Shown here: piece by piece, positions 47,210 to 55,577 of the stretch
How the letters are laid out: every line of letters starts with the position of its first letter
Numbering within the stretch: the first letter of the stretch is position 1
Source of the DNA: Betaproteobacteria bacterium
Lineage (GTDB): Bacteria; Pseudomonadota; Gammaproteobacteria; Burkholderiales; JACQAP01
NCBI GenBank assembly: GCA_016194905.1
Contig: JACQAP010000026.1
Location: 154,418 to 218,417 of the forward strand
Length of the DNA: 64,000 nt
Direction of reading: 5' to 3'
Made by a program: the position numbers and the translations under genes
The notes under the pieces: model-generated
Told to the model about the DNA's origin: nothing
The model's input: only the letters and a program-made list of their open reading frames with translations
The model's database searches: none

Positions 47210-49873
47210 TTATGGCTTTTGCTCGCCGCCCGCGGCAGCGTCGTCCTGCGCTTGCGCCGGCTCCGCCAGGCGCATCCTCAGGCTGAGTGTGGGCAGGTCC
47301 AGCGTGGACAGCGGCGGAGTGATTTCTCTCGATTTTACCGGTACGACCGAAACGGCCTTCACCGATTCGGCGCGGCGGGCCTCCGCCGATCCCGAGTAGG
47401 GCGTCCAGCCGACGAAGACCCAGCTTACGACCGCGGCTGCTGCAACCGTGACGCCGCCGGCCAGCGCGCCGCGATAGGAGCGCCGCGCCGGTGCAAAATC
47501 GGCGCCGGATGCATAAGAGCGGCTGTCTTCGACGCAGGCGGGCTTCGTGAAGTCGGCGATCCTGTTCTTCGTGATTTCGTCCAGGTCGTCTTCGATCGCG
47601 TCGATTTGTGCGGGCGGTGTCGGCTCTCCAGCAATTTCGCCGGCGATGCGCTCGTTCAAGACTTCCATTGCCGACACTTCCGGGTCCGGCTCCCCTGTCG
47701 CCGGTTCATCAGCCGCGATGGCCGCCCAGTTCTGCTCCTCCGACTCGGTGTCTTCGAATTCGATGCTGTCGGTCGTTTGCACGACGTTTGCGAGCGTCGA
47801 GACGGCGACGCGACTGGAAACAGGTGCGTACGCGCTTTGCTCCTGCGCACTGTCTTCCAAGATCTCGCGTTCGGCGGCGGCATGGGCACGGGCGCGATCA
47901 TGCGCGGCCTTGATCCGGCTGCGTTTGTAGGCGATCTTCCGGCGAGCGGCCTCGGCTGCGGCCCGCAAAGCCTCGGTGCGTTCGGTTTCCGCGTGCAGCA
48001 ACTCTTCCGCAGCGGCCCGGGCTTCCTGCTCAGCGGCGACCTGCGCCTGCGCTGTCTCATGCGCCGCGCTTTCAGCCTGCAACCGGGCCTGCGCGACCTC
48101 GGCGGCTTCCCGTTCGACGCAACGGCGCTCAAGTGCCATTTCGTCTGCTTTTTTCTCGACCTCTTCGCGTGTGCGGGTTTCGCGCAAGACCTCGAGTTCG
48201 GATTCGACCCGTTTCGCTTCGGCGACCGCCAGTTCCTTCTCGGCCCGTTCGCGTGCCAGCGCGGCGGCACGCGCGCGGATGGCCATGCGCGCGCGTGCCT
48301 CGGCCGCCTGGCCGGCCAGGTCCTCGGCACCGGCGGCGCCCTCGGCTTCCGCCAGCGCCTGCCTTTCCATGCAGACTTTTTCCTCGGCAGCCCGCAGACA
48401 GCGTTCCTCCGCCAAACGGCGCGCCTCCGCAGCTTCCTCGACCTGATCTTCCGCCAGACGACGTGCGGCAACGGTCTCTTCGAATCGTTGGTTCAGCTCC
48501 GCCAGTCGCGCGGCCGCAGTTTCAACCGCCGCCTGTGCTTCGGCGGCCGCAAACCGTTCGGCGTCGATGCGTTGTTGGGCGAGTTGCTGCGCCTGACGGT
48601 CGGTTTCGTTGCGCGCGCGCTGGGTTTCCCAGGCCGCAGCATCCAGCAGGACTTGCTGCTCGGCGATGACACGCGCCTCGCGTTCCTCTGCCGCGCGCGC
48701 TTCCACGGCTTCACGTGCCAGCGTTTCGGTCAGCGCACGGGCCCTGGCTTCCTGTTCGGCGTGGATTTCGGCATCCAGGCGTGCGGTCGTGGCGTCCTGC
48801 GACGCCAACTCGGCTTGTGCCCGCGCTTCCGCCGCGCGCTTCAGTTCGGATTCCGCACGCGCGCGCACCTCCGCCGATTCGCGCTGTTTGCGTTCCGCGG
48901 TCCGGCGTGCCTGCATTTCGCCCTGCGCTTCCTGCTCCGCGCCATGGCGCAACTCGGTTTCGTGCATGAGCGCGCACGCTTCATCGGCCCGCGATTTTTC
49001 GGCTGCGGCCAGTTCCCGCTCGATGCGCAGCTGGTTTTCCGCTGCGTTGCGTGCGCGGGCTTCATGCGCGACCCGCGCCTGGGCTTCCGCCGTGGCGGAT
49101 TGCTCGGCCTTGATGCGGGCTTCCGATTCCGCGGCCGCGGCCGCTTCGGCTTCGATGCGCGCCAAAGACAGCAGTTTCAAGCGGGCATCGATGGTGGATC
49201 TCGAGTCGGCCAGTTCCCGGGCGCGTGCTTCGGCCGCGGCGCGTTCGCGAGCTTCCTGCGACGCACGGCTTTCGGCTTCGGCGCGCGCCCGCGCCTGCTC
49301 GACTGCCTGACGTTGCGCTTCGGCCCGCGCCAGCGCCTGCACTTCGGCGCGGGTCTCTTCCTGCTCGCGGTGCTCGTACGCTGCACTCAGATCGTTGAGT
49401 TGCCGCTTGAGTTCTTCCGCGCGAACACGGGCGCGTTCGCCCAGCGTGCGGTCGGTGCCGGCCTGGGCTTCGGCAAGGCGCGCGGCGTTGGCTTCGCTTT
49501 CCTCGCGTCGCCGCGCTTCCGTGATCGCGGCCTGGTTGGCGCGCTTGCGCTGTTCGGCGGCAGCAAGGGCCAGACGTTCCGCTTCGATGACGGCGAGGGC
49601 GGATTGCGCCGCTTCCTCGTCGGCGCGTGCACGCTGTTCGGTGAGTCGCGCCGCCTCGGTTTCCAGTCGCCCACGTTCTTCGGCCGCGGTGCGGGCGCGG
49701 ACTTCACGCTGTGCACGGCTTTGCGCCGCCAGCGCCGCGCTGGTTTCGGCCTCGACGCGCTCGACGGCCTCCTGAATGGCATGCATCGCCGGAGAATGGG
49801 AAAGATCGCCGTCCCAACTTGGGTTGGGCGCCAGGCTCGGCGGCGGGTTCGCCGGAGTATTTCGTGTCGACAT
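47210..49873 (-). CDS. Giant Ala/Glu/Arg-rich coiled-coil protein with C-terminal membrane segment
   Basis: This 887-residue protein is unlike its neighbours. Residues about 30-655 are an almost unbroken run of Ala, Glu, Arg and Gln with many AEARA/AEAEAR units and no proline after about residue 30. They should form a very long coiled coil or single alpha helix. An acidic linker follows (about 690-790). One hydrophobic helix ([22 protein letters not shown]) lies near residue 815, then a short Pro/Ser-rich tail. There is no signal peptide. It is probably anchored in the inner membrane with its rod in the cytoplasm. I recognise no family; function is unknown. Confidence 0.75.
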
Positions 49874-51213: not shown

Positions 51214-51358
51214 TCTCAACTTCCATTGTTGCATTTGATGCGGCGCACCGTGAATATCCGTCACTTCGCGCTAAACTTCTTGAGGTTTGCGCCGTCAAGC
51301 CGACGTTGAGACCGAAGACTTTTCTTGCTTCCACTTTGCGAACGGCATATCAAATTCA

Positions 51359-54300
51359 ATGGCGGTTTCCAAGTTGAAGTCAGGTGTCGTCACCCATCTT
51401 GCGGCGCCGGAGCAGTTCCTTGCCTTGGTGGAATTGTCGCCGGACGCCATCCTCATCCACACGGAAGGCTGCATTTCCTACGCCAATGCCGCGGCCGTAC
51501 GGTTGTTGCACGCGGACAGTGCGAGCCAGATTGTGGGCGTGGAGGCTCTCGCGCTGGTTCATCCGGATGATCGCGAGATGGTGCGCGAACGCATTGCACG
51601 CCAGAATCGGGGCGAAAACGTGCCGCGGATCGAACAGCGCTACATGCGCGCGGACGGCAGCGTCGTCGACGTGGAAGTCACGTCCGCGCCATTTGTCTAC
51701 GGCGGCCGCACGGCCATCCAGGTTTTCGTCCGCGATATCTCCGAACGCAAGGCCGCCGACCGGCGCATCGGCCGTCTGACCGACCTCTATGCCGCACTGT
51801 CCCTGACCAGCCAGGCCATCACGCGCTTGCGCGACCGCGACGCGTTACTCAACGAATGTTGCCGGATCGCCGTGCGCCACGGGGGCCTGCGGATGACATG
51901 GGTCGTGCGGGCGGCCCCGGAAACAAAGCGGGCGATCCGCGTTGCCACCAGCGCACCGGCTGCGGCGTATGAGGAAATCATCATCTCGCTCGACCCTGAT
52001 CAAGCGGAGGGCCGCGGGCCTATCGCCATGGCGATACGGGACGATCGCAGTTACCTCTGCGACGACGTGATGGCGGATCCGAACATGGCACCGTGGCACG
52101 AGCCGGCCCGGCGCCACGGCCTGCGTTCGGCCGCCGCCTTTCCGCTGCACCGGGGTGGCAAGGTGTGGGGGGCCATCATCCATTATGCGGGCGAAACCGG
52201 CTTCTTCCGGCAAGACCTGGTCGACCTGCTGGAGCGCATGGCGGAAGACATCTCGTTTGCGCTGGATAACATCGAATCCGACACCCGGCATGCATTGGTG
52301 GAAAAAGCATTGCTCCAGCAGGAACGCAGGATCGAGACCCTCATGGGCAACCTGCCGGGCATGGCTTACCGCTGTCGCAACGACTCCCATTGGACCATGG
52401 AGCTGATCAGCGAGGGCTGTTTCGAGCTGACCGGATATCGCGTGGAAGAACTCCTGTTCAATGAGGTCGTCTCGTTCGAAAGCATCATCCATCCGGAAGA
52501 TCAGCGTCGTGTCCGCGACGAAATCGATGCCGGCCTGTTGGAGCGCCGGCGCTTCGTCATCGAGTATCGGATCATCGGCAAGGATGGCGAAGAGAAATGG
52601 GTCTGGGAACGCGGACAGGGCGTCAACGACGAAAACGGAAACCTGATCGCGCTGGAAGGCTTCGTCACCGAAGTGACGGAACGCCGGCGCGCCGAACATA
52701 GCCTGCGGGAAAGCGAAGCACGTTTCCGCAGCCTGGTGGAGCTGAGCTCCGACTGGTACTGGGAGCAGGACGAGAACTCGCGCTTTACCGAAGTGTCACG
52801 CGGTTTTTATCAGCATGTGCGGCCTGAGGAGTTCATTGGCAGGGCGCGCTGGGAAATCAAAGGCGCGTTGCCGCCCGCCGAAGGCTGGGACGCGCATCGC
52901 CAGATGCTCGCCCGACACGAGCCGTTTCGCGATCTCGAGTACGGCAGGGTGCTCGCGGGCGGCATCATCCGTCACTTCAGTTTCAGCGGCGAGCCGATGT
53001 TCGACGAGGAGCGTCGCTTCAAAGGATATCGCGGCGTCGGCCGGGACGTCACGGCGCGTCGCAACGCGGAGGAGGATCTGATCCGCTTCCGTGCGGCCAT
53101 GGAGACCTCGGCCGACGCGATCTTTATCACCGACTTCAGCACGATGCGCTACCTGGACGTCAACGACACAGCGTGTCGCATGCTCGGCTATTCGCGCGAT
53201 GAGCTGCTGCGCATGGGCGTGCAGGATCTCAATTCGGACGAGGATCTGCCGCTGGTGCGCGGACTGTTCGACAACGTCAGGACGCAGGGAGCGAATTCCG
53301 GCGGCGCGGGCTCGGACCTCCGCCGCCTGCGCCGCAAGGACGGCAGCATCGTGCCCGTGGAGGTCTATCGCCGCTATCTGAAGAGCGGCGACAAAGACAT
53401 TGTCGTATCCGTGGCGCGCGACGTTAGCGAACGTCTGAAGGCGCAGGAGGATCTCGTGCGCTTCCGGACCGCGCTGGAGACGTCCCCGGACCTGATCTTT
53501 CTGATCGACCTGCGGACGCTGCGCTACATCGACGCCAACGAAACCGCCTGCCGCATGCTGGGCTACCAGCGTGAAGAACTGCTGGGAATGAGCCTGCTGC
53601 AGATCAACGCCAATGTCAGCGAGGAGGACCTGCGTGGGAAATTCCAGGAAACCGTTGCGCTCGGTCCGGACCGGGTGGTAACCGAGGCGGAGGGACGTAT
53701 GGCCCGCAGGAAGGACGGGTCGCTTTTTCCGATCGAGATCGCACGCCGCTATCTGCGCATCGGCGAGCGCGATATCATCGTCAGCGTCTCGCGCGACATC
53801 ACGGAACGCAAGCGGGCCGAGGAGGCGTTGCAGTTGCGCAACCTCGCGATCGAGGCCAGTGTCAATGCAATCCTGATCACCAATCATCTGCTGCCGGATC
53901 AGCCGATCGAGTATGTCAACCCCGCTTTCGAGCGCATGACCGGCTATTCGTCCGCTGAGATTGCCGGGCGCAACTGCCGTTTTCTGCAGGGAGCGGACCG
54001 CAACCAACCCGAAATCGAATTGTTGCGCACCGCGATTCGCGAAGGCTGCGAAGCGCGGGTGGTATTGCGCAATTATCGCCGCAACGGCGATGCGTTCTGG
54101 GCCGAGCTCAGCATTTCGCCACTGCGCGACGCGAACGGGCGCATTACGCATTATGTCGGCGTGCTCAGCGACATCACGGAAGCGCGCAACGTACGCGAAC
54201 AACTGGAACATCAGGCCAGCCACGATGCGCTGACCGGCCTGCCCAACCGCAGTCTGTTGTTCGACCGTCTCAACCAGGCCATCGCCCAGGCGCACCGCTA

Positions 54301-55522
54301 CCAGCGCACGATCGCGGTGGCATTCGTCGACCTCGACAATTTCAAATTCATCAACGACAGCCTCGGGCACGGTGCCGGCGATCAAGTCCTCAGGATCAGC
54401 GCCGACCGGCTGAGGGCCTGCCTGCGCGAGGGTGATACCGTGGCGCGGCACGGGGGTGACGAATTCGTGCTGCTGCTCAACGATCAGAGCGGACGCGAAT
54501 CGGTGACGCAAGTTGTCTCCCGCATTGTCGAAAAACTGGCCGCGCCGCTTGCCGCCGAAGGGCAGGAGCTCGCTACCACATGCAGTGTCGGGATCAGCCT
54601 GTATCCGGAACATGGAACCGATGCCGCGACACTGCTGAAAAACGCGGATGCGGCGATGTACCGGGCCAAGGCGCGAGGCAAGAACAGCTTCCGGTTCTAC
54701 ACCGTGGACTTGGGGACGCATCTGGGAGACAGACTGAAGCTGGAAACGCAGTTGCGGCGCGCACTGGAACTTGGCGAGTTCGTTCTGCACTATCAGCCGA
54801 AGATCGATTTGCGCAGCCGGGCCATCTACGGTCTGGAAGCACTGATCCGCTGGCGTCATCCGCAGGACGGACTGGTGTCGCCGGACCGCTTCATCGGTAT
54901 CGCGGAGGAGACCGGCCTGATCGTCCCGATCGGCGAATGGGCGTTGCTCACCGGATGCGCGCAAGTCCGCGCGTGGAGCGATGCCGGCTTGCCGCCGATG
55001 ATGCTGTCGGTAAATATTTCTGCGCGCCAGTTCAGGCGCGGCGATCTGGTGGAGACTGTGTCGCGGGCGTTGGCTGAAACCGGGCTCGCGGCGCAAAGAC
55101 TGGAACTGGAATTGACCGAGAGCCTGGTAATGGAAAACGCCGAGGAGTTCATCGACACGCTTAACGCGCTGAAGAGACTCGGCGTTAGCCTCAGCGTCGA
55201 CGATTTCGGAACCGGTTACTCCAGCCTGAGCTATTTGAAGCGCTTCCCGGTCGACAGGCTGAAGATCGACCAATCCTTCGTACGCGACATCGGCACCGAT
55301 CCGAACGATGCGGCGATTGCGCGCGCCGTGATTCAACTCGGCCACAGCCTGGACCTGCGCGTGACCGCTGAAGGCGTGGAAACCGCGGAGCAGTTGCGCT
55401 TCCTGCGTGAGCACGGGTGCGATGAGGTCCAGGGTTTTCTGTTCAGCCGGCCGCTGGCGGCGGAACGGGTGGTCGAGCTGCTGCGCGAAGGCCTGGATCC
55501 GGCGACGATGAACGGCGCTTGA
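51359..55522 (+). CDS. Multi-PAS/GAF/LOV GGDEF-EAL protein
   Basis: This 1387-residue cytoplasmic protein has, in order, PAS (51410-51770), GAF (51780-52290), PAS (52340-52690), PAS (52720-53070), two near-duplicate PAS domains (53085-53440; 53455-53820) and a LOV-type PAS (53840-54190). GGDEF follows, with active site GGDEF (54452-54466) and an REGD I-site. The EAL domain starts EALIRW (54836) and has DDFGTGYSSL intact. The LOV domain has GRNCRFLQG, with the flavin-adduct Cys at 53975-53977, and NYRRNGDAFW. It probably makes or degrades c-di-GMP in response to blue light and other signals. ATG 51359 is uncertain; TTG 51287 is an alternative. Confidence 0.92.
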   Translation: MAVSKLKSGVVTHLAAPEQFLALVELSPDAILIHTEGCISYANAAAVRLLHADSASQIVGVEALALVHPDDREMVRERIARQNRGENVPRIEQRYMRADGSVVDVEVTSAPFVYGGRTAIQVFVRDISERKAADRRIGRLTDLYAALSLTSQAITRLRDRDALLNECCRIAVRHGGLRMTWVVRAAPETKRAIRVATSAPAAAYEEIIISLDPDQAEGRGPIAMAIRDDRSYLCDDVMADPNMAPWHEPARRHGLRSAAAFPLHRGGKVWGAIIHYAGETGFFRQDLVDLLERMAEDISFALDNIESDTRHALVEKALLQQERRIETLMGNLPGMAYRCRNDSHWTMELISEGCFELTGYRVEELLFNEVVSFESIIHPEDQRRVRDEIDAGLLERRRFVIEYRIIGKDGEEKWVWERGQGVNDENGNLIALEGFVTEVTERRRAEHSLRESEARFRSLVELSSDWYWEQDENSRFTEVSRGFYQHVRPEEFIGRARWEIKGALPPAEGWDAHRQMLARHEPFRDLEYGRVLAGGIIRHFSFSGEPMFDEERRFKGYRGVGRDVTARRNAEEDLIRFRAAMETSADAIFITDFSTMRYLDVNDTACRMLGYSRDELLRMGVQDLNSDEDLPLVRGLFDNVRTQGANSGGAGSDLRRLRRKDGSIVPVEVYRRYLKSGDKDIVVSVARDVSERLKAQEDLVRFRTALETSPDLIFLIDLRTLRYIDANETACRMLGYQREELLGMSLLQINANVSEEDLRGKFQETVALGPDRVVTEAEGRMARRKDGSLFPIEIARRYLRIGERDIIVSVSRDITERKRAEEALQLRNLAIEASVNAILITNHLLPDQPIEYVNPAFERMTGYSSAEIAGRNCRFLQGADRNQPEIELLRTAIREGCEARVVLRNYRRNGDAFWAELSISPLRDANGRITHYVGVLSDITEARNVREQLEHQASHDALTGLPNRSLLFDRLNQAIAQAHRYQRTIAVAFVDLDNFKFINDSLGHGAGDQVLRISADRLRACLREGDTVARHGGDEFVLLLNDQSGRESVTQVVSRIVEKLAAPLAAEGQELATTCSVGISLYPEHGTDAATLLKNADAAMYRAKARGKNSFRFYTVDLGTHLGDRLKLETQLRRALELGEFVLHYQPKIDLRSRAIYGLEALIRWRHPQDGLVSPDRFIGIAEETGLIVPIGEWALLTGCAQVRAWSDAGLPPMMLSVNISARQFRRGDLVETVSRALAETGLAAQRLELELTESLVMENAEEFIDTLNALKRLGVSLSVDDFGTGYSSLSYLKRFPVDRLKIDQSFVRDIGTDPNDAAIARAVIQLGHSLDLRVTAEGVETAEQLRFLREHGCDEVQGFLFSRPLAAERVVELLREGLDPATMNGA

Positions 55523-55577
55523 CGATGGCGTCGCCCGCGTTCGGGCGTGATAATGGTGCCGTCAAGGTCAACGCGGG

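Follow-up and report, generated by a model that had tools for sequence, protein, structure and literature searches.

A natural LOV-type domain lacking the signalling glutamine in a multi-PAS GGDEF-EAL protein of a betaproteobacterium

The window, by which we mean the whole stretch of 64,000 nucleotides analysed here, carries a gene whose product joins a LOV-type PAS domain directly to GGDEF and EAL domains. The LOV domain has kept its adduct-forming cysteine, and it has leucine in place of the signalling glutamine and alanine in place of the second flavin-ring asparagine. We propose, with a probability slightly below 60%, that the protein is a natural LOVdeltaQ-GGDEF-EAL receptor, i.e. a slow-cycling, blue-shifted photoreceptor that would change net c-di-GMP turnover via a linker of 21 residues. 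Single substitutions in AsLOV2, together with the natural glutamine-less LOV receptors already described, make flavin binding and photochemistry of the domain likely but not certain, and blue-light control of the c-di-GMP enzyme is our best guess.

Results

The open reading frame is free of internal stops and starts at a TTG at 51287 or perhaps at an ATG at 51359 (MAVSKLK); the TTG may lie too early for the photoreceptor gene. Domains were assigned with Pfam, fragment by fragment of the protein, and residues of the LOV domain were numbered by alignment to AsLOV2, with a reference sequence that agrees with PDB 2v1a at every position.

51287..55522, + strand: open reading frame, 1411 residues, PAS-GAF-four PAS-LOV-GGDEF-EAL
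51413..51739, + strand: PAS 1 (PAS; Pfam 2.7e-14)
51830..52267, + strand: GAF (GAF_2; Pfam 1.7e-21)
52406..52666, + strand: PAS 2 (PAS_3; Pfam 3.3e-21)
52757..53062, + strand: PAS 3 (PAS_4; Pfam 4.3e-07)
53084..53431, + strand: PAS 4 (PAS_9; Pfam 7.6e-13)
53459..53806, + strand: PAS 5, a relative of PAS 4 (PAS_9; Pfam 2.8e-13)
53843..54181, + strand: LOV-type PAS domain without the glutamine (PAS_9; PDB sequence matches and AlphaFold2 fold)
53975..53977, + strand: adduct-forming Cys, residue 897 (AsLOV2 C450; alignment)
54071..54073, + strand: conserved Asn, residue 929 (AsLOV2 N482; alignment)
54101..54103, + strand: genus-specific Ala, residue 939, replacing AsLOV2 N492 (alignment)
54164..54166, + strand: Leu, residue 960, replacing the signalling glutamine (AsLOV2 Q513; alignment)
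54170..54232, + strand: J-alpha/coiled-coil linker, 21 residues (DIT Asp to DxLT Leu)
54215..54685, + strand: GGDEF, diguanylate cyclase (Pfam 3.6e-53, motifs)
54425-54436, + strand: RxxD I-site, REGD (motif)
54452-54466, + strand: GGDEF signature (motif)
54749..55453, + strand: EAL, c-di-GMP phosphodiesterase (Pfam 2.5e-80, MorA alignment)

The domain order agrees with the first-pass annotation, which had counted five other PAS domains and one GAF ahead of the LOV domain. PAS 4 and PAS 5 (53084-53806) have the appearance of a tandem duplication, with about 36% identity in an alternative register; it is in this second register that the PAS 4 region aligns to the PAS 5 region of a congener (36% identity). 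Direct fusion of the LOV domain to an intact GGDEF with I-site and an intact EAL, also part of the earlier description, was confirmed by Pfam, motifs and an alignment to MorA (4rnh, 6e-142), the closest solved relative of the enzyme half. The I-site lies five residues upstream of the GGDEF signature, and the EAL motifs EALIR, VNIS, ELTES, DDFGTGYSSL, LKIDQSF, AEGVE and QG are all in place.

That the last PAS domain is of the LOV type also held, GRNCRFLQG and NYRRNGDAFW being where they had been placed (NCRFLQG at 53972-53992). Its nearest PDB sequences in a phmmer search are LOV proteins, the best being a LOV histidine kinase (9e-35), and this similarity is far beyond chance. An AlphaFold2 model from a 39-sequence alignment reached a mean pLDDT of 96. 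When it was compared with the PDB by Foldseek, every one of the top 50 matches was a LOV flavoprotein, with TM values reaching 0.95; as the alignment itself contained LOV domains, this result supports the fold and not flavin binding. Alignment to AsLOV2 shows that G447, N449, C450, R451, Q454, R467, N482, F490, W491, L494 and D515 are kept, and that alanine stands at 414 and 492 and leucine at 513. Two of these replacements had been missed in the first-pass annotation, namely the alanine that directly follows NYRRNGDAFW, where LOV domains have asparagine, and the leucine of GVLSD near the domain end, where they have glutamine. In AsLOV2 the electrostatic contacts to the flavin are made by the side chains of N482, N492 and Q513 (PMC3903614), and hence two of the three are gone. 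The first-pass annotation had staked its LOV assignment on the presence of the other LOV flavin contacts, an expectation that stands for N482 and falls for N492 and Q513.

As glutamine is replaced by leucine, and only one of the two flavin-ring asparagines is left, we do not file the domain as a canonical LOV. Dietler et al. (2022, PMC9098866) filtered for LOVdeltaQ receptors by requiring that eight or more of nine residues conserved in LOV domains be present and the glutamine absent. The domain has exactly eight of the nine, the missing one being the equivalent of YtvA N104 (N492), and leucine at the position of YtvA Gln123; by this definition it is therefore a LOVdeltaQ domain.

How common the two replacements are was judged from a motif survey, which is independent of the query, since sampling based on the query would bias the outcome. 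In 398 Pseudomonadota genomes we looked for NCRFLQ followed by FW at canonical spacing, and all 54 Cys-bearing LOV domains obtained were read; each species was sampled through a representative, and divergent LOV domains fall outside so strict a motif. N482 was present in 54 of 54 and N492 in 53 of 54, the sole exception being the domain in the window. Glutamine at 513 was found in 46 of 54, with leucine in five (the window included), isoleucine in two and threonine in one. At 15%, domains without the glutamine are thus not rare, whereas those with alanine at 492 are. Leucine at 494 (48 of 54) is the common bacterial residue, and position 414 is not conserved. An NCRFL(Q/H)...FW-Ala pattern turned up in two genomes of the window's genus and in no other of the 399 searched in the order, and the combination of alanine and leucine was found nowhere outside this genus. 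Neither did we find a paper on a natural or engineered double change of N492 and Q513 in the open-licence literature, taken without the supplement of PMC9098866. Glutamine-less LOV domains on GGDEF-EAL are already known, and the present one is unusual mainly for the double replacement.

Three other genomes of the genus were compared. An ortholog is present in one of them (G114); over the 667 residues that the two proteins have in common it is 89% identical (88% in the LOV domain), and it agrees with the window's protein in the Cys, the Ala and the Leu. Against this ortholog dN/dS was 0.15 for LOV, 0.14 for GGDEF and 0.11 for EAL, the other parts spanning 0.11-0.14, so that the LOV domain is under purifying selection of a strength close to that on the enzyme domains. 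An artefact or a pseudogene was rejected as an explanation on these grounds, namely the congener's shared residues and the dN/dS of the LOV domain. The other two genomes (G070 and G023) gave no relative of the gene at E 1e-15, and in G070 tRNA-Gly(ccc) directly adjoins asmA, with thiS/thiG beyond (L237:300-480). In the window (51214-55577) the 4.2-kb photoreceptor gene lies between tRNA-Gly and asmA, i.e. at a single-gene presence/absence site beside a tRNA; the gene thus comes and goes within the genus and is constrained where present. On the minus strand at 47210-49873, beside thiG, lies an Ala/Glu/Arg-rich open reading frame of 887 residues with a hydrophobic stretch near its C-terminus, which is probably coiled-coil.

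Phylogenetic analysis of 104 LOV-like domains, on 133 columns and with the three trait columns left out, placed the domain in a set of 50 rows (SH-aLRT 95). In this set 41 of 50 lack the glutamine and 19 of 50 the cysteine, counts that are indicative, given that relatives were picked by similarity to a glutamine-less query and that the tree has 133 columns. The rows without cysteine (among them L011, L107, L112, L116, L129, L131, L145-L150 and L159) have Pro, Gly, Leu, Trp or Ser instead, with the LOV motif otherwise often preserved. Members of the clade thus form a series with both Cys and Gln, with Cys only, or with neither, mostly on the same 21-residue linker before GGDEF. Blue-light sensing is hence not a fixed function of the clade. 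We do not claim a coupled loss of Cys and Gln; Fisher's test gave p 0.012 (104 rows, raw), but informative independent pairs are too few. With regard to the linker, enough flank was available for 64 relatives. In 36 of them the domain leads into a GGDEF that starts with DxLT, and 34 of the 36 have a linker of 21 residues, counted from the DIT Asp to the DxLT Leu. Four LOV domains bearing Cys, N492 and Leu for Gln (L143, L152, L154 and L156) are joined to DxLT by a linker of 35 residues. This is the length found in the long-linker LadC light-switch cyclases; natural glutamine-less LadCs may exist.

Discussion

The mechanism that we infer begins with FMN bound by the LOV domain. Blue light would produce a thioadduct at Cys897 and protonate flavin N5, and the signal would pass to the beta sheet and the C-terminal helix by a water-mediated rearrangement of hydrogen bonds. 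Such a route has been proposed for other LOVdeltaQ receptors, and we invoke it here because the signalling glutamine is a leucine. The 21-residue coiled-coil linker would then shift the balance between GGDEF and EAL. Absorption is predicted to be blue-shifted to about 438-442 nm and recovery to be slow, in the range of tens of minutes, so that the protein would integrate the signal and not act as a fast sensor.

The proposal draws on published work on single replacements. Wild-type AsLOV2 has a lifetime of 80 s and absorbs at 448 nm; N492A (54 s, 448 nm) and Q513L (1793 s, 438 nm) both still bind flavin and photocycle, and N414A recovers in 1427 s (PMC3903614). N492Q and N482A could not be expressed in usable amounts (PMC3903614), and the flavin pocket is therefore sensitive at these positions. 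Several LOV receptors can do without the glutamine, and a list of about 350 natural receptors that lack it, mostly with leucine or isoleucine at this position, has been published (Dietler et al., 2022, PMC9098866). Light signalling persists in NmPAL and AsLOV2 with leucine there, and most residues support light responses in YF1 (PMC9098866).

The sequence does not reveal in which direction control would run. Blue light would most likely lower net c-di-GMP, a guess to which we are led because SL2 and RmcA, both listed as blue-light-activated phosphodiesterases, and a Mesorhizobium loti LOVdeltaQ-GGDEF-EAL, whose LOV-GGDEF part proved in assays to be a cyclase repressed by blue light (Dietler et al., 2022, PMC9098866), would all act in this sense. 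LadCs, which have no EAL, go the opposite way as light-activated cyclases, the short-linker ones being activated about 15-fold (PMC10396304). Against light control, LOV-GGDEF truncations of LOV-GGDEF-EAL proteins that have the same linker showed no light effect.

Photoreception via a LOVdeltaQ domain accords with the LOV-nearest sequence and fold, with the retention of the Cys, N449, R451, Q454, R467 and N482 here and the likeness of the congener, and with a linker equal to that of the short-linker LadCs; the loss of two of three polar flavin-ring contacts speaks against it. Its main rival is a flavin-binding PAS domain that senses redox state or oxygen, in which flavin reduction is the signal and the cysteine is kept by descent. 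We regard this as unlikely, yet it is a live alternative because relatives in the same clade are often without the cysteine. The frequent loss of the glutamine (41 of 50 rows) and of the cysteine (19 of 50) in the clade fits it, as does the Cys-less LOV-like PAS of RmcA from Pseudomonas aeruginosa, the nearest model, which binds flavin on a GGDEF-EAL protein; in a large survey of PAS domains, only 57% of the LOV/FMN cluster had the Cys. A search of the host genome returned no reaction-centre or BLUF match, and hence no independent sign of a light-centred lifestyle. Nevertheless, both congeners that carry the gene have kept the Cys and the full NCRFLQ under purifying selection, and RmcA itself has been implicated in a light effect.

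If the domain had lost flavin altogether or nearly so, it could still link the upstream PAS/GAF sensors to GGDEF-EAL, as a module for dimerisation or relay. The joint replacement of N492 and Q513, the near-invariance of N492 among the sampled Cys-bearing LOV domains and the poor expression of AsLOV2 N492Q lend this some weight; we hold it to be less probable than redox sensing. Against it, the N492A variant photocycles with a near-normal lifetime, Q-to-Leu variants of YF1 and AsLOV2 bind flavin (PMC9098866), and R451, R467 and the Cys are in place here. A canonical LOV receptor for blue light with ordinary photochemistry at 447 nm, the reading originally given, has the Cys motif and the fold on its side, but we reject it as highly improbable: both the glutamine and the second asparagine contact are absent, and without the glutamine absorbance moves by about 10 nm and recovery is in general slower (PMC9098866, PMC3903614).

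A broader, tentative and rather doubtful suggestion is that we are looking at a working natural LOV photoreceptor without the signalling Gln and the second Asn, within a large proteobacterial GGDEF-EAL clade that is losing LOV photochemical residues one by one. Were light sensing retained, two side chains thought to be central to LOV domains would be dispensable together in a natural protein, sharpening the claim that the cysteine plus water suffices; were it absent, a LOV-to-redox transition would have been caught with the cysteine still present. Either way, the clade provides a natural series on the gain and loss of light control by LOV domains, and if residue-by-residue loss is true, the path from light to flavin redox sensing could be traced within one architecture and one linker length.

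Among known systems, the M. loti protein (WP_140774521.1, PMC9098866) likewise has a Cys-bearing, Gln-less LOV domain directly before GGDEF-EAL; it differs in having methionine rather than leucine at the glutamine position and, with LOV and GGDEF within residues 1-326, in having no five-PAS/GAF array. SL2 of Synechococcus elongatus shares the LOV domain directly before GGDEF-EAL, but its LOV domain is described as canonical and it comes from a phototroph, with no mention of a PAS array. RmcA of P. aeruginosa, for which a blue-light effect on biofilm is known, resembles the present protein as a multi-PAS GGDEF-EAL with a LOV-like PAS, and differs from it in that the LOV-like PAS of RmcA lacks the Cys that is kept here. 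The short-linker LadCs AoLadC and DpLadC (PMC10396304) share the LOV-GGDEF linker of 21 residues; they were chosen for typical LOV motifs and have neither EAL nor PAS array, a LadC having one LOV and one C-terminal GGDEF only, whereas EAL and six further sensor domains are present here. Lastly, the Q513L and N492A replacements engineered singly in the plant LOV domain AsLOV2 (PMC3903614) occur here naturally and together, in addition to an alanine at the position of N414.
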